This document shows positions 6,122 through 12,829 of a stretch of 64,000 bases of DNA, in pieces; the stretch's first letter is position 1, and each line of letters begins with the position of its first letter. This DNA comes from Natronomonas salsuginis (lineage in GTDB: Archaea > Halobacteriota > Halobacteria > Halobacteriales > Haloarculaceae). A model generated the notes under the pieces. The model did no database searches. It saw nothing but the letters and a program-made list of their open reading frames with translations, and was not told the DNA's origin. The translations under genes were made by a program, and so were the position numbers. The stretch is from assembly GCF_005239135.1 (NCBI RefSeq), contig NZ_QKNX01000008.1, positions 1 through 64,000 of the forward strand, given 5' to 3'.

Positions 6122-6236
6122 TTCCGCCTCTCGGACGTGAATTCGGTGCGAGACTCGTTGTGCTCGTCTTTCGACTTCCCGCTCGCTTCGCTCGCGGGAA
6201 CGGGGGCAGCTCGACGTTCAGTCGAGTACGTAACGC
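6122..6236 (-). pseudogene. Decayed tRNA-Phe copy with hairpin insert
   Basis: On the minus strand, remnants of tRNA-Phe are recognisable against the intact gene at 10118-10191. The anticodon arm (CTCGACTGAA-GTCGAG) and variable region are readable at 6236-6203. A perfect hairpin (TTCCCGC, 11-nt loop, GCGGGAA; 6176-6200) interrupts the sequence where the T-arm should begin. A degenerate hairpin (6151-6169) and a degenerate tRNA 3' end (6122-6148) follow. The copy cannot fold as a tRNA. Confidence 0.55.
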
Positions 6237-6262: not shown

Positions 6263-6376
6263 GATGCAGCCTCCCGGATTTGAACCAGGGGAAGACTCAC
6301 TCCGTTCGTCTTCCAGGGCTCAAATCCGGTCGAGTCCCATTTCTGTCGCTCACGACTTTGTTCGCGACAGAGATGC
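6263..6376 (-). repeat. Left 114-bp direct repeat (tRNA-Phe 3'-end unit)
   Basis: Matches 10007-10120 with 3 mismatches in 114 bp. On the minus strand it reads as a hairpin (TCTGTCGC/GCGACAGA), then a second hairpin whose outer arm is a copy of the tRNA-Phe 3' end (GGTTCAAATCCGGGAGG) and whose core is a 7-bp stem with 11-nt loop at 6290-6314. No intact tRNA accompanies this copy. Confidence 0.85.
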
Positions 6377-6438
6377 AAAGGACTTCACCAGAGCCAAATA
6401 GCTAAGAATTCATTTACCGAACGTCTTTCGTCGAGGGG

Positions 6439-7726
6439 CTAGTCTCCGAAATTCCGGCTCTTGAATTTGCTAATTCCTTCCTCGATCGCGTTCCCAGGTG
6501 ACTTGATTTCATCATTAAAAAAGTAGGCTTCAGCAGAGCGTCCGATTCCCCACGTTGTCCCATAAGCGATGACAGCCGATACCGCCGAGCCGAGGCCAGG
6601 GAGCATCTGTATCGCAGCTCTTGCCAACTCCCGAACTCCGGCACCTGCTCCGATTGAAACTCCTGCGGTGCTCATATAGTCGGTTACAGTTTCTGTCTCA
6701 ATTTCTCGACACGAGAAACTCCCAATCAGCCAGATGAGCATTAATTGCATTGTGCTAAGTACGGCGATGTCTGCGACTGGAGTTGGGAAAGCACCGACAC
6801 CTCCGGCGATTTTAGCGAAGCGGTCTGTAACGTCCCTAGATAGTTTCCGCATTAGTTTTTCGCGCTGTTGTCGTTGGGCTTGAGCGAACTGAAGTCGAGC
6901 TTGTTCAGGTAAAAAATCGCCGATGAGTGTGGCGAGGGTCTCATCATTCCAGTAAGGTTCGGAGTGGAGGTAGGTTGGGACAACGCCGACGTACTTATCG
7001 GAATCGAACGTATAGCCATATACCGGTTGGTTCTGTGTAATGGGAGTTTTTTCGAAGGTTGTCTCGGTTTCCTTCTCTAGTACACGATGGACAAAATCAA
7101 GATTCTCCTTAATTACCCCGGCTTGCGATGGGTTTTTTACCGGGTTCGAGCTTTTCGCCTTGGGGTATATGGGTATCCACTTGATTGAGACAAAAAAGAA
7201 TCGAAGGGAAGGCCGTCCCGAATTCGTTTCGAAGCTGACTTACCGTCTCGAAGTCTTGTTCACCAGCTCGTAGCTGCCCCGGCGTCATCACGTGAATAAG
7301 AACATCTGGGCGATACTCTTCTAAATCCTCTCTCATAAATTCGACAGTATCGACCGGGATTTCGCCATCGGCTGGGACGGTTTCAAATAGGCCTCGTGAA
7401 TCGACGACATCCCAACTGGCATAATGGTCCGTGAATGGAATATTATAGAGTTTCGACCCCGTAGTTTCTGGTTCAATGGCACCGATATCGGCTACGTCCT
7501 TCCCGGCGAGCGCATTTATAAGCGAGGATTTACCAGCGCCAGATCGTCCGAATACGTATAATCGGGGAGGGCGAGATTCATCAACTAATTCGTCAATTTC
7601 TTGGAAAGCTTCACCCAGCAATTTCTTCATTAACTCCTTACTCTCCTCGTTTTTGAGAGGCGCCATTTCGGCTATGTGGTCCATCCGATCCCGAAACTCA
7701 TTGAACTCATCCGGGTCTAGAGCCAT
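6439..7726 (-). pseudogene. Era-like GTPase with C-terminal DUF697-like domain, one frameshift
   Basis: The N-terminal part (7726-7109) has a G1 motif GRSGAGKSS, a G3-like DSRG and a G4 NQVD, so it is a GTP-binding domain. The C-terminal part (stop at 6439) has two hydrophobic stretches and a GAGAGVRELARA segment like DUF697 membrane domains. The two halves are in different frames. Beyond NQVDTHIPQGEKLEPGK the first frame stops at 7109. The second frame continues smoothly (NPSQAGVIKENLNFDVHRVLEKE) through to the C-terminal part. The joint fits one extra base in the A6 run at 7133-7138. Intact, it would be about 430 residues. A sequencing error in the homopolymer would also explain it. Confidence 0.7.
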
Positions 7727-7840
7727 ATGATCCCGATATATGAGCAGTACTTAAAAACACTCTGACGAGTTTCAAAGCCAAGACAATTTTCATTGTGAAT
7801 AAAAACGGCTCTGTATTTCAGAACAGAGAAGCTATAATAA

Positions 7841-8308
7841 ATTCTTGCCCAGTACTGCATCCATCCTCTGTATTCAGCAGCCAGTACCTATCAATCTCTG
7901 AGGATTTCAATAGAGCCAAAGAGCTGGATACTTGGCTCTGGGATTTTCTCCATCTCAGTCTTCGCCGCCGGATTGTTCGTCCCAGTCTTCTCGTTCCCGG
8001 TTATCGAGGCACCAACGATTGCCTCTCTCACATTCACAGCACTAGTCAAACCACTGATGGTGATCGGCGCACCGCTACTGTTCTCTTTCTTCCTGATCAT
8101 CCTTGAAGAACGACGACTTGGGACCCGCGACAGAGATATGGCCGAAGAAATCGATCGGATTTCAAACGAAAACAGGTACGAAACCGTGGTCGTGTCCTGC
8201 GGTGATGCACACCTCGACAGCCTTCCTGACCTCTTAGAAGAGAAAGAATGGGAGACAGAAGTCAACGAATCCGACCATAGCTGGGCCGCCAAAATCTGGC
8301 GCTGGTAA
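7841..8308 (+). pseudogene. 5'-truncated membrane-anchored protein remnant
   Basis: The frame is open from just after a stop at 7838-7840 and has no ATG. The only candidate start is a TTG at 7973, inside a hydrophobic run. The readable part has two membrane segments (SISVFAAGLFVPVFSFP and PLMVIGAPLLFSFFLIIL), then a soluble tail with VVVSCGDAHLDSLPDLLEE and ending KIWRW. The tail is reminiscent of the end of TraB/PrgY-type proteins (a GxxH motif before a leucine-rich helix), but this is weak. I read it as the 3' part of a gene that lost its 5' end. Confidence 0.45.
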
Positions 8309-8470
8309 CGTTCAACCCCCCGCGATCCGAAATCGTTCAACTCACACTCAGATAGCGGCACACTCCAGGCACTTCCAAATAGTATCCAAACCAGGATGAA
8401 CATCCTTGTCACAATCGAAGAGCCGCGCCAAAACGCATAAGTCATTATCACAGTAATCATTATTCAAAGT

Positions 8471-9862
8471 ATGACGTTCTATGACCGGGGAGAGGAGCTT
8501 ACTGCGCTTTCAGACGCGTTTGAGTCGCCTGGTTCAGACGTGTTCGCCGTCTACGGGCGTCGGCGTGTCGGCAAAACCGAGTTGCTGAAGGAGTTCTGTA
8601 CTGATCGGCCGCATATGTACTTTCTCGCGGCACAGGAAGCCGAACACCGCCAACGCGAGAAGTTCATCGACAAGGTCGCGGCGTTCTTCGATGACCGCAC
8701 CCCGCGGATCGACGGGTGGGACGAGGCCTTCGACTACCTCGGGGAGAAACTCCAGTCCGAGGCAGTGGTGGTCGTCATCGACGAGTTTCCGTACCTCGTC
8801 ACGGAGAACGACTCGGTTCCATCGTACGTGCAGGGATTCGTCGACGAGCAACTCCAAGGAACCGATTCGATGCTGATTCTCTGTGGGTCGAGCGTGAGTA
8901 CGATGGAATCAGAGGTACTCGGCCACGAGAGCCCGTTGTATGGACGTCGTACGGGACAGCTCGACGTGCGACCCTTCTCGTTCCAGCAGGCGCGTGAAGT
9001 CATCGAGTACGAGATGGTAGACGCGATTCGATCCTACGCGATCACCGGTGGGACACCGATGTATCTCACGCTGTTCGATTACGGGCGATCGCTCGCCGAA
9101 AACGTCCGATCGCAGGTGCTGTCGCCGTCGGCGATATTGTACAACGAGCCGGAGTTCTTGCTCCGAACCGAGCTCCGGAATCCCGCGCGGTACATGAGTA
9201 TTCTCGAAGCGGTCGCGCTGGGGCACACGACGCCGAACGAGATTTCAGGGGCGACGGGAATCGATGTCGGTCCGCTATCGAAGTATTTGCAGACGTTGCG
9301 GCAGCTCCGACTGATCGATCGGGAAGTCCCCGTGACAGCGTCGGGAAAGAAGTCCAAGCGGTCGCGGTACCGCGTTGCGGACGAATTCCTTCGGTTCTGG
9401 TTCCGGTACGTCGAGCCGAACCGTTCCAGTATCGAGGAAGCACCAGAGATCGTGTACGATGGAACGATCGCGCCGGATCTCCCAATGCACGTCGCCACCA
9501 CGTTCGAGGACGTGTGTCAGGAAGCCGTGTGGGAAGGAATTCGACGCGGTGAGTTCGAGGCGTACTCGGAGGTTGGCCGCTGGTGGTACGGCGAAGACGA
9601 GATCGATATTCTCGGGCTCGCACCGAACGACAACCGGATCCTGTTCGCCGAGTGCAAGTGGACAGCGAAGCCAGTCGGGACGGCGCTCGTCGAGGATCTG
9701 CAGACAAAAGCGGGGAACGTTAGATGGGGGTCAGATGAGCGGGAGGAGTGCTTCGCGCTGTTCTCAAAGAGCGGGTTCGTTGAGGGACTCGAAGATCAAC
9801 TCGACGACCACTGGTCGCTATGGGATCTCGCAGAGATAGATGACCTCCTCACGCTGTCCTGA
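8471..9862 (+). CDS. Archaeal AAA ATPase with DUF234-type nuclease-like C-terminus
   Basis: A 463-residue protein. It has a P-loop GRRRVGKTELL near residue 28 and a Walker B VVVIDEFPYL near 98, followed by a CGSS sensor segment. A winged-helix stretch (residues about 255-310) leads to a C-terminal domain with an E-x(n)-D-x(n)-ECKW pattern (DEIDILG ... LFAECKWT) like PD-(D/E)xK nucleases. This is the PF01637 plus DUF234 architecture, common in archaeal accessory DNA. Its biological role is not established. It stands alone with an AT-rich upstream region and is the only intact gene in the island. Confidence 0.82.
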   Translation: MTFYDRGEELTALSDAFESPGSDVFAVYGRRRVGKTELLKEFCTDRPHMYFLAAQEAEHRQREKFIDKVAAFFDDRTPRIDGWDEAFDYLGEKLQSEAVVVVIDEFPYLVTENDSVPSYVQGFVDEQLQGTDSMLILCGSSVSTMESEVLGHESPLYGRRTGQLDVRPFSFQQAREVIEYEMVDAIRSYAITGGTPMYLTLFDYGRSLAENVRSQVLSPSAILYNEPEFLLRTELRNPARYMSILEAVALGHTTPNEISGATGIDVGPLSKYLQTLRQLRLIDREVPVTASGKKSKRSRYRVADEFLRFWFRYVEPNRSSIEEAPEIVYDGTIAPDLPMHVATTFEDVCQEAVWEGIRRGEFEAYSEVGRWWYGEDEIDILGLAPNDNRILFAECKWTAKPVGTALVEDLQTKAGNVRWGSDEREECFALFSKSGFVEGLEDQLDDHWSLWDLAEIDDLLTLS

Positions 9863-10006
9863 AGAATTCTGTCGATGCGAGCGGTGGCAAGATTTGGTTT
9901 GCCTGTCGGTGGATCGTCCAAGGCCTATTTAATCAGAATCGAGCGGCTTGATCTAGTAAACAAATTGCGCGCACCCATAACTAGCGGGCATTTGAACTGT
10001 GAGTAT

Positions 10007-10120
10007 GATGCCGCCTCCCGGATTTGAACCAGAGGAAGACTCACTCCGTTCGTCTTCCAGGGCTCAAATCCGGTCGAGTCCCATTTCTGTCGCTCACGAC
10101 TTTGTTCGCGACAGAAATGC
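10007..10120 (-). repeat. Right 114-bp direct repeat, unit following tRNA-Phe
   Basis: Directly downstream of tRNA-Phe (minus strand). A 10-bp hairpin (TTTCTGTCGC/GCGACAGAAA) is followed by a long hairpin. One outer arm of that hairpin repeats the tRNA-Phe 3' end, including the discriminator A. Its core is GGAAGAC, loop tcactccgttc, GTCTTCC at 10034-10058. It differs from 6263-6376 at three bases. Confidence 0.85.
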
Positions 10121-10191
10121 CGCCTCCCGGATTTGAACCGGGGACAGCTCGATCTTCAGTCGAGTGCTCTCCCAGTCTGAGCTAAGGCGGC
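10118..10191 (-). tRNA. tRNA-Phe (anticodon GAA)
   Basis: A 74-nt cloverleaf with 7-bp acceptor GCCGCCT/AGGCGGC, anticodon stem CTCGA/TCGAG, loop CTGAAGA and T-stem CCCGG/CCGGG. CCA is not encoded. The gene is the anchor of the repeat units downstream and the likely attachment target of the island at 6377-10006. Confidence 0.97.
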
Positions 10192-10339
10192 TCGCATTCA
10201 CACCGACGCCGACGCTATCAAAAAGGGTTTCGAAAGCCGGCCGTGGTGTCGGAGTCTGCGATTTTCGCCGCCGCGCGACGACGGTCTGTCCCCGGACCGT
10301 CGGGCGGAGGTCTATGTGTCCGCAGCCCCTCTTGGAGGC

Positions 10340-11899
10340 ATGCGCCAGCCGATAGTCGGGACCGGTCCGGAGTACACAGTCGGGGCCGACGAGGTACCGT
10401 GGATCCTGGGCACCCAACTCACCGAGCAGTGTGGGCCACTGGCCCGCGCCGCCGAGGACAGTCGAGTGCTCCTCATCGAGGCGCACGATTTCGCCCGCCG
10501 GATGCCATATCATCACCACAAGCTCACACTGGTCTTCGCTGCGATGCGACAGTTCGGCGATCGTCTCCGCGCGGACGGCTACGACGTTCGCTACATCCGG
10601 GCGGACACGTTCGGAGCGGGGCTCGAGCGGTTCTTCGAGGACAATCCCGAAGCGACGCTGGTGTCGATGCGCTCGCCCAGTTACGGCTCCGAACGGCGGT
10701 TTCGCGAACTGGTCGCAGCCGCGGGGGGAGCCGTACGATTCGTCGAAAATGAGCTGTTCGTCAGCACCCGGCGAGCGTTCGACGAGTGGGCGAACGACGA
10801 CGGCTCGTTCAAACACGAGCCGTTCTACCGGTGGATGCGTCGGGAGTCCGGCGTGTTGATGGAGGACGAGGAACCGCTCGGTGGCGAGTGGAACTTCGAC
10901 GAGCACAACAGGGAGTTTCCACCCGACGAGTGGCGTGCACCGCCGATCCCGTCGGTCGAACACGATGACCGGACCGCGGAGACCGCTGCCTGGGTCGCCG
11001 AGACGTTCGACACGTGGGGCCGTACCGATGGGTTCCGGTGGCCAGTCACGCGAGAGCAGGCCCGCGACCTCCTCGACCACTTCGTCGACGAACGGCTGCC
11101 CGAGTTCGGCCCCTATCAGGACGCGATGCGACGCGACGACTGGGCGATGACGCACGCGCTGTTGAGCAGTTCGCTGAACGTCGGGCTGCTCCACCCGGTC
11201 GAGGTCATCGAGGCCGTCGAGAACGCGTACCACGAGCGCGAGCACGTCGGTCTGGCCTCCGCGGAGGGGTGTATCCGACAGGTACTCGGCTGGCGGGAGT
11301 TCGTGCGACACGTTTATCGCCACACCATGCCGGAGTTGGCGACCGCGAACGCGCTGGGGGCCCCCCGCGACCTTCCCGAGTTCTACTGGACTGGAGAGAC
11401 GGCTATGCGCTGTCTCGCGGACACTGTCGATGACGTCCACACGCGCGGATACGCCCACCACATCCAGCGGCTGATGGTACTCGCGAACTTCGCGACGCTG
11501 TGGGGCGTCGAGCCGAGCGAGCTCAACGAGTGGTTCCACGCCACTTTCGTCGACGCCTACCACTGGGTGACGACGCCAAACGTCGTCGAGATGGGGCAGT
11601 ACGGTCACGGCGCCTTCGCCACGAAGCCGTACGTCTCCTCGGCCAACTACGTCGACCGGATGTCGGACTACTGTGAGGGCTGTCGATACGACGAGAACGC
11701 TGGCTCCGGTGCCGATGCCTGTCCGTTCAACGCCCTCTACTGGGACTTTCTCGACCGCAACGAGACGCCGCTCCGAAGCAATCACCGGATGGGGCTGATG
11801 TACAGCCACGTCGATACCAAGCGCGAATCGGGGGAGATGGACCGACTCCGGGATCGGGTCGATCGACTGCGCGAACTGGCCGCGAACGGCGAGCTCTGA
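10340..11899 (+). CDS. Fe-S photolyase/cryptochrome-related protein (FeS-BCP type)
   Basis: Predicted light-dependent DNA repair flavoprotein. It is about 519 residues, matching the prokaryotic photolyase-related family whose founding members repair (6-4) photoproducts. The four cysteines expected for the 4Fe-4S cluster are visible: one in SAEGCIRQVLGWREF, two in YCEGC and one in DACPFN. The FAD-binding helices contain the family pattern TRGYAHHIQRLMVLANFA. I chose ATG 10340 because the frame's earlier GTG (10316) adds only eight residues and lies close to the tRNA. A GGAGG stretch sits immediately before the ATG, too close to be a standard ribosome site, so the start is not certain. Confidence 0.88.
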   Translation: MRQPIVGTGPEYTVGADEVPWILGTQLTEQCGPLARAAEDSRVLLIEAHDFARRMPYHHHKLTLVFAAMRQFGDRLRADGYDVRYIRADTFGAGLERFFEDNPEATLVSMRSPSYGSERRFRELVAAAGGAVRFVENELFVSTRRAFDEWANDDGSFKHEPFYRWMRRESGVLMEDEEPLGGEWNFDEHNREFPPDEWRAPPIPSVEHDDRTAETAAWVAETFDTWGRTDGFRWPVTREQARDLLDHFVDERLPEFGPYQDAMRRDDWAMTHALLSSSLNVGLLHPVEVIEAVENAYHEREHVGLASAEGCIRQVLGWREFVRHVYRHTMPELATANALGAPRDLPEFYWTGETAMRCLADTVDDVHTRGYAHHIQRLMVLANFATLWGVEPSELNEWFHATFVDAYHWVTTPNVVEMGQYGHGAFATKPYVSSANYVDRMSDYCEGCRYDENAGSGADACPFNALYWDFLDRNETPLRSNHRMGLMYSHVDTKRESGEMDRLRDRVDRLRELAANGEL

Positions 11900-11929
11900 G
11901 CGAACGCGAGCCGGCCGCACCGCGCCGAG

Positions 11930-12439
11930 TCAGTATCGGAGGACCGCATCGAGGATACCGACCGTTTGCCCGATTCCGACGCAGACCAAGCCGGCTAGCC
12001 ACAGCGGGAGGACAGCCTCGAAGAGCCCGATCGTGTACAGCGACGCGCCCACCAGACAGGCCGCGGCTGCGCTGAAATATATCCAGCCGCCCCCTGCGAC
12101 CCGTCGTCCCGTGTAGACGAATCCGGCGGCAGGGAGGAGCATCCAGCCCCCGAGGGCGATCCCCGACAGAACGAGGGTCGCCGCGTCGACGCGGAAACTG
12201 AACACGCCAGCCAGCGTCACGAAGACCCCGACGGCGATGATCCGCCACCAGACGTGCAACACCCCTTCGCGCATGTCTCCCCGTCCGGTCACCGCGAACC
12301 CCGCGAGCAGCACGGTCATCACGACGTGCGCGATGAACAGCGTCCGAGGGATTACGACTCCCAGATGTGCGGCGATGACGAACGTCCACGCGAACGGTAC
12401 CAGTAGTGCCGGACCGAGCTCCCGGGATCGGCGGAACAT
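11930..12439 (-). CDS. Multi-pass membrane protein, unknown function
   Basis: A 169-residue protein with about five hydrophobic segments (for example VPFAWTFVIAAHLGVVI and LWLAGLVCVGIGQTVGI) separated by short charged loops. I do not recognise a family. It lies convergent to the photolyase with a 30-bp gap and downstream of the tRNA-Val repeat array. Confidence 0.7.
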   Translation of the reverse strand: MFRRSRELGPALLVPFAWTFVIAAHLGVVIPRTLFIAHVVMTVLLAGFAVTGRGDMREGVLHVWWRIIAVGVFVTLAGVFSFRVDAATLVLSGIALGGWMLLPAAGFVYTGRRVAGGGWIYFSAAAACLVGASLYTIGLFEAVLPLWLAGLVCVGIGQTVGILDAVLRY

Positions 12440-12480
12440 ATCGATACTCGACCATCGGGGCGGCAGCCCAAATCACTACT

Positions 12481-12756
12481 GTCCGTTCGCTCCGCTCGTT
12501 ACGTTGCGGCACAAAATGGATCCGAGCGGAGTCGAACCGGAGCCAGACGTGCTCGCTCCGCTGCGCGCGACTGGCAGGGTCCGATTCCTTTGGCCCATTT
12601 TGTACCGCGGACTCCTCGCTTCGCTCGTCGCGTTGCGGCACAAAATGGATCCGAGCGGAGTCGAACCGGAAAAAAGACTCACTGCGTTCGTCTTTTAGGG
12701 TTCGATCCGCCCAACGTACGATTCGCTCGTCGCGTTGCGCTCCTCGCAGAATCGCA
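12481..12756 (-). repeat. Tandem array of tRNA-Val 3'-end units
   Basis: Read on the minus strand after tRNA-Val there are two units and a partial third. Copies of the tRNA 3' end start at 12669 and 12540, so spacing from the tRNA is 111 and then 129 nt. Each copy is the second arm of a long hairpin whose first arm is its near-complement. The first unit has the core AAAAGAC, loop tcactgcgttc, GTCTTTT (12672-12696). The second has GCCAG/CTGGC arms around a longer loop. Between units lies a stem ATTTTGTGCCGC/GCGGTACAAAAT (12596-12648). Confidence 0.8.
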
Positions 12757-12829
12757 TGGGTCCGGGCGGAGTCGAACCACCGATCTCGTCCTTGTAAGGG
12801 ACGCGTCATAACCACTAGACCACGGACCC
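12757..12829 (-). tRNA. tRNA-Val (anticodon UAC)
   Basis: A 73-nt cloverleaf with acceptor GGGTCCG/CGGACCC, anticodon stem CGTCC/GGACG, loop CTTACAA and T-stem GGTGG/CCGCC. CCA is not encoded. It is followed on its own strand by two tandem repeat units that copy its 3' end. Confidence 0.97.

Follow-up and report, generated by a model that had tools for sequence, protein, structure and literature searches.

Short non-coding units lie directly 3′ of essential tRNA genes in most of the haloarchaea sampled, where each ends in a copy of the 3′ end of the tRNA that it follows. The units are real and general, and we propose that they are probably non-autonomous mobile DNA hairpins that target the T-loop, duplicate 22 bp of it with the adjoining 3′ end and rely on a recombinase acting in trans. 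The proposal draws on a common plan with sharp boundaries, empty and filled versions of the same sites, turnover of arrays, covariation within the hairpins, and the presence of one inner hairpin behind different tRNA types. No prior description was found in Rfam or in the open-access literature searched, and the units are apparently undescribed.

Two arrays of units in the window

The window analysed here is a stretch of 64,000 nucleotides from the 2.9-Mb genome of the haloarchaeon Natronomonas salsuginis (contig NZ_QKNX01000008.1). The initial annotation had described hairpins with copied tRNA 3′ ends behind tRNA-Phe and tRNA-Val, the latter with two units and a partial third, and both the coordinates and the identities of the copies confirm this (Table 1). 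It had counted a single unit at tRNA-Phe. That unit, at 10009-10117, stands, but a second and near-identical one at 6265-6374, about 3.6-3.7 kb away, had been missed. A remnant matching that at 6180..6228 is also found directly 3′ of tRNA-Phe in a relative (L256 of G117).

Table 1. Features of the tRNA-Phe and tRNA-Val arrays in the window.
Feature	Position	Strand	Basis or remark
tRNA-Phe(gaa), anchor of first array	10118..10191	-	ARAGORN and Rfam RF00005
Hairpin h1 of Phe unit 1, immediately 3′ of the tRNA	10083..10117	-	Sequence; DNA fold z=-4.3
Inverted T-loop arm (A′) of Phe unit 1	10061..10073	-	CCGGATTTGAGCC; complementary to GGTTCAAATCCGG with one G-T pair
Inner hairpin h2 of Phe unit 1, class nnnAGACGAACGNAGTGAGTCTnnn	10031..10060	-	Sequence; class seen again in many genomes
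22-bp repeat, copy of tRNA-Phe positions 52-73	10009..10030	-	Identity 22/22
3.6-kb payload bounded by the two Phe units	6378..10008	.	Gene-bearing, including small ORFs
DUF234/ATPase_2 protein, Phe payload	8471-9862	+	
MMR_HSR1-type GTPase, Phe payload	7109-7726	-	
h1 of Phe unit 2, beyond the payload	6340..6374	-	
A′ and h2 of Phe unit 2	6287..6329	-	
22-bp repeat ending Phe unit 2	6265..6286	-	One mismatch to tRNA-Phe
Old tRNA-Phe remnant	6180..6228	-	Anticodon arm and 5′ T-stem; hairpin breaking the T-arm
tRNA-Val(tac), anchor of second array	12757..12829	-	ARAGORN and Rfam RF00005
Val unit 1	12668..12756	-	h1 12715-12756, inverted arm 12698-12713, h2 12668-12697
22-bp repeat, Val copy 1	12646..12667	-	19/21 to the tRNA over the scored part
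Val unit 2, h2 class nnnAGTCGC..CACGTCTnnn	12539..12645	-	h1 12598-12645, inverted arm 12577-12597, h2 12539-12576
22-bp repeat, Val copy 2	12517..12538	-	19/21 to the tRNA
Partial third Val unit, h1 only	12470..12516	-	Direct repeat D1 and sequence

A photolyase/cryptochrome-like gene (window 10316-11899) lies between tRNA-Phe and tRNA-Val. In relatives the gene is not beside either tRNA, and the two tRNA genes are sometimes only a few hundred bp apart. Synteny around the photolyase gene was tried as a route to the empty site; as it is not conserved, it was replaced by searches anchored on the tRNAs.

Plan and boundaries of the unit

The order of elements is constant: the tRNA gene is followed by a first hairpin (h1), an inverted T-loop arm (A′, GGATTYGAACC), an inner hairpin (h2) and the copy, which reads GGTTCRAATCC and then continues with the rest of the 3′ end of that tRNA. 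The units are about 85-115 bp long. The copy comprises 22 nt, tRNA positions 52-73, with a sharp start at GG|TTC and an end at position 73. Across this interval, its identity to the tRNA was 0.96-1.00 in the 187 units whose copies have at most two mismatches, while the background identity outside the copy was 0.14-0.50 upstream and 0.37-0.58 downstream.

The first arm had been described as a near complement of the copied end. This holds over the T-loop, where A′ is a good inverted copy for about 10-13 nt, but the outer part scored only slightly higher against its own acceptor than against those of other tRNAs (4.06 vs 3.59, p=9e-5). Near-perfect arms over the full length are few (e.g. L085 and L249), and the idea that A′ is an inverted copy of the full acceptor end was given up for most units since the outer part barely tracks the acceptor. 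In units whose copy has diverged from the tRNA in the T-loop, A′ agrees with the tRNA in 23 cases and with the copy in 3, so that A′ and the copy of the same unit are not tightly held to pairing.

Association with the local tRNA and distribution

The claim that units copy the identity of the tRNA that they follow is borne out across the whole N. salsuginis genome. When the 300 nt downstream of every tRNA was searched with up to 4 mismatches allowed in 21, the tRNA's own 3′ end was found again behind 10 of the 40 tRNAs, compared with 12 matches in 1560 when tRNA ends were swapped and none in the 40 upstream regions. Of the 146 family genomes, 115 contain the A′-h2-copy pattern and none contains it reversed. 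It was also found in 58 of the 81 genomes sampled from the order, and in 0 of 312 other genomes in a phylum-wide sample. Of the 122 pattern matches within 400 nt 3′ of a tRNA, most reproduce the end of that tRNA, with agreement at 20-22 of 21-22 positions.

The same plan appears in DPANN archaea. The Woesearchaeota genome G530 has it behind four tRNAs (two Gln and two Ser) and G662 has it behind tRNA-Ser genes; the arrangement in G599 and G771 resembles these. The woesearchaeotal units in G530 and G662 (L135, L357, L361, L410 and L415) have other inner hairpins, and their occurrence raises the question of one enzyme or convergence. A looser pattern was detected in 13 of 281 genomes of a class sample beyond the haloarchaea, and many of these matches are probably due to chance. 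Bacterial matches were treated as chance as well, being mostly single and having no adjoining tRNA or poor copy identity.

Gain, loss and turnover of units

Orthologous tRNA-Val loci provided two pairs of empty and filled sites. The difference between G127 and G124 is 135 bp including an exact 22-bp direct repeat (113 bp without it), and that between G134 and G121 is 108 bp, again including an exact 22-bp direct repeat (86 bp without it). In both pairs the same flank resumes beyond the unit. On our reading the difference would have arisen by insertion rather than loss, although both pairs could also be precise deletions between the repeats. Recombination between repeats can remove units just as insertion can add them, and the closeness of the repeats allows plain homologous recombination to alter their number. 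At the tRNA-Ser(tga) locus, relatives carry 0, 1, 2 or at least 3 units, and the order of the cassettes varies.

Two loci 3′ of tRNA-Ser(tga), L297 in G073 and L303 in G068, have another hairpin-rich insert. In the non-functional copy, it follows TTCAAA inside the T-loop.

Dispersed inner hairpins with local ends

The initial annotation had concluded that the units are not one dispersed repeat. The arms and the copy are indeed local, but the inner hairpin belongs to a dispersed family. An inner module is identical at 58 of 60 positions behind tRNA-Arg and tRNA-Asp, with an h1 and a tRNA end particular to each locus, and R57/Y in both arms tracks the local tRNA. In G662, one unit recurs behind two tRNA-Ser genes that differ from each other, and at both the acceptor end is that of the local gene, which is what target duplication gives. 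This weakened the alternative in which cassettes bring their own tRNA end. Motif A of h2 fell inside units in 21 of 22 scored occurrences, the 22nd being a Val unit of the window; its short core GARCGNAGYGAG occurs elsewhere too. The near confinement of motif A to units argues against a generic dispersed haloarchaeal hairpin.

A plasmid of Haloarcula halophila (NZ_CP119561.1; L279, 2990-3070) carries a unit that lacks the copy and splits a tRNA-Cys gene exactly at GG|TTC. Taking out 68 nt restores a predicted tRNA. An automatic scan for further tRNAs split in the T-loop returned false matches only, apart from this one. The split gene belongs to a cluster of many tRNA genes on this plasmid, beside a type B DNA polymerase gene.

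The local character of the ends bears on a mechanism that needs no dedicated enzyme, in which h1 and h2 trigger template switching during replication and the tRNA end is copied by fold-back into alternating inverted copies. Repeated fold-back would produce the order copy, h1, inverted arm, h2 and copy, both arms follow the variants of the local tRNA, and some inverted arms, as in L085, are near-perfect over the whole end. However, fold-back alone would generate neither a conserved and site-confined motif A nor inner hairpins common to several tRNA types, and the ends of the units are fixed at position 73 and GG|TTC. We consider template switching quite unlikely as the source of the units.

The inner hairpin as DNA or RNA

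The structure covaries, with 97.6% of cells paired and 64 double-change cells vs 20.4 in shuffles, and the signal vanished on sliding. The inner stem had 3 G-T and 5 A-C combinations vs 35 and 2 in the tRNA acceptor stems of the same loci (Fisher p=8e-4; the inner-stem counts are small and the sequences are related). The outer-arm pairs alone gave 82 G-T and 36 A-C, mostly from two positions. A C-GNA-G turn was present in the inner hairpin of 180 of 207 units, with 74 expected from shuffling; GCGAAGC is a DNA mini-hairpin of exceptional stability. G-U pairs would be expected to be frequent in an RNA, yet the strongly covarying inner stem has G-T about as rarely as A-C. A DNA hairpin is thus favored over RNA, and judging from these sequences h2 looks like the former.

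The decoy and trailer RNA options of the initial annotation are weakened accordingly by the composition of the inner stem and by the interruption of a tRNA gene. As a structured trailer RNA, the unit would be co-transcribed with the tRNA and provide a hairpin for tRNA 3′ processing, an RNase Z decoy or a small regulatory RNA. The units do lie always on the tRNA strand and directly 3′, in a very constant layout, and they are strongly folded. Nevertheless, their inner stem is nearly all Watson-Crick, unlike the tRNA stems of the same data, the folding energies of the sense and antisense strands are alike (p=0.18), the same tRNA occurs without a unit in close relatives, and the unit in tRNA-Cys disrupts its gene. 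Rfam identified only tRNAs in the window and nothing in the Val array up to E=1. A trailer RNA thus appears unlikely. Serial duplication of tRNA ends by an integrating or copying element, the remaining option, fits best in light of the empty and filled sites with their 22-bp repeats, the rearranged arrays and the inner module shared across tRNAs with a local 3′ end.

Payload genes

Four arrays, namely that of the window, L152, L177 and L192, include intervals that contain genes and end in a hairpin plus a repeat. The payload of L192 comprises HicA, a DUF7387 partner, a PIN-like protein and a TrmB-type regulator. L177 encodes a nucleotidyltransferase whose small partner we read as HEPN-like. 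By resemblance, the L152 genes encode a PIN-like protein with a regulator; the closing hairpin there is degenerate. By sequence, the payload is toxin-antitoxin-like in these three of the four cases. No integrase was detected among ten payload proteins scanned. Neither an integrase nor a transposase was recognised in the window payload, and the integrase search of the N. salsuginis genome gave no match there. Since 20 further array regions had no payload, genes between repeats are the exception; where they occur, they may move with the units.

Comparison with known systems

Islands inserted by tyrosine integrases at tRNA genes share with the units a direct repeat of the tRNA 3′ end that leaves the tRNA intact, and the T-loop is the attB location of mycobacteriophage Ms6 (PMC1762012). 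The units could thus be scars of lost islands of this kind, whose usual mark is such a repeat, and the gene-bearing segment between the two Phe units is in keeping with that origin. Unlike islands, however, the units are about 100 bp long, have no integrase, and occur in arrays with an inverted arm and h2. Two ordinary islands in the same genome, one of 11.1 kb with an integrase at Arg-gcg (L267, G000:C2) and one of 1.7 kb at Glu-ctc (L270, G000:C4), have longer repeats that extend upstream to the anticodon arm, with neither the inverted arm nor h2. On this difference, ordinary attachment scars were rejected as a candidate. Scars would also not bear a conserved hairpin family nearly confined to tRNA-end sites. 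Finally, many as the units are, searches of IMG/VR, INPHARED and PLSDB for an A′-h2-copy attP on a circular virus or plasmid yielded none that was convincing, and the one strong plasmid match was the interrupted tRNA-Cys. An origin as island scars is quite unlikely on this evidence.

The units resemble integrons in forming arrays of imperfect, covarying DNA hairpins at which recombination is putative, and some intervals hold toxin-antitoxin-like genes. Integron attC sites have the consensus RYYYAAC...GTTRRRY. The outer box of the units, TTYGAAC...GTTCRAA, is similar, with the junction after G. The units differ in that they are anchored on a tRNA gene rather than attI and that each has, at its flank, 22 bp copied from the local tRNA. 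Nearly all are gene-free, whereas integrons tie most sites to a promoterless gene cassette. A search for the integron integrase (TIGR02249) found none above cut-off in 21 genomes. Integron cassettes and attC sites do have archaeal examples (PMC9668308).

Casposons and CRISPR acquisition, both of which use Cas1, offer a parallel in their repeat-insert-repeat arrays. Like the units, casposons insert at tRNA 3′ ends and duplicate the target, and the Aciduliprofundum boonei casposase reads the T-loop-like TCAAATC at a tRNA end, beside the duplicated site (PMC6614799). The duplication there is 14-15 bp, compared with 22 bp in the units, and casposons carry a gene for Cas1 and end in inverted repeats, whereas the units have neither a gene nor such ends.

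PATEs, the palindrome-associated elements related to IS200/IS605 that were described in Haloquadratum (PMC3119063), are likewise small non-autonomous haloarchaeal DNA elements with near-terminal hairpins. The units, however, target the T-loop and 3′ end of tRNAs. IS200/IS605 elements and PATEs insert without target duplication, in contrast to the 22-bp repeat in both pairs of empty and filled sites; the split tRNA-Cys of L279 is the one insertion case without this repeat. The Y1 transposase (PF01797) was absent from the own genome and from the unit-bearing G003, G009, G015, G016, G026 and G027. These searches for IntI and Y1 found no enzyme that moves the units. A tyrosine recombinase of the T-loop class and a Cas1-type integrase are the leading ideas for the candidate enzyme.

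Proposed model

We propose that a two-hairpin element, consisting of h1 and A′-h2, inserts at the 3′ end of a tRNA gene. Insertion would leave positions 52-73, from GGTTCRAATCC to the discriminator, as a 22-bp direct repeat on either side, with the tRNA intact. A′ and h2 would fold as single-stranded DNA, presumably the form acted upon, such that the T-loop sequence GG|TTCRAA is formed again in the outer stem. This sequence would probably be recognised by a recombinase or integrase acting in trans, in a manner comparable to the integron integrase on attC and the casposase at tRNA ends. Repeated insertion, together with loss between repeats, would build the arrays, and the interval between repeats may occasionally carry genes.

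In a broader and more tentative version, which we regard as possible but less than probable, the units represent a separate, array-forming class of DNA capture on tRNA genes. Folded hairpins would be inserted at the T-loop by an integrase, either of the host or acting in trans, with positions 52-73 duplicated each time, and the system could carry cassettes of the toxin-antitoxin type. Such a class would combine features of integrons and CRISPR and be neither, and would span most haloarchaea and some Woesearchaeota.

As T-loop-targeted mobile hairpins, the units would account for many short duplications of tRNA ends in the genomes of haloarchaea and would define a new T-loop-directed insertion reaction. 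They would offer a natural repeat-insert-repeat array to set against integrons and CRISPR.

One variation concerns h2 itself. In some units its apical part looks inverted, with AGACTCGCTACGCTCGTCT replacing AGACGAGCGNAGCGAGTCT, for example at G359:C1:183061 and G060:C2:1992467.
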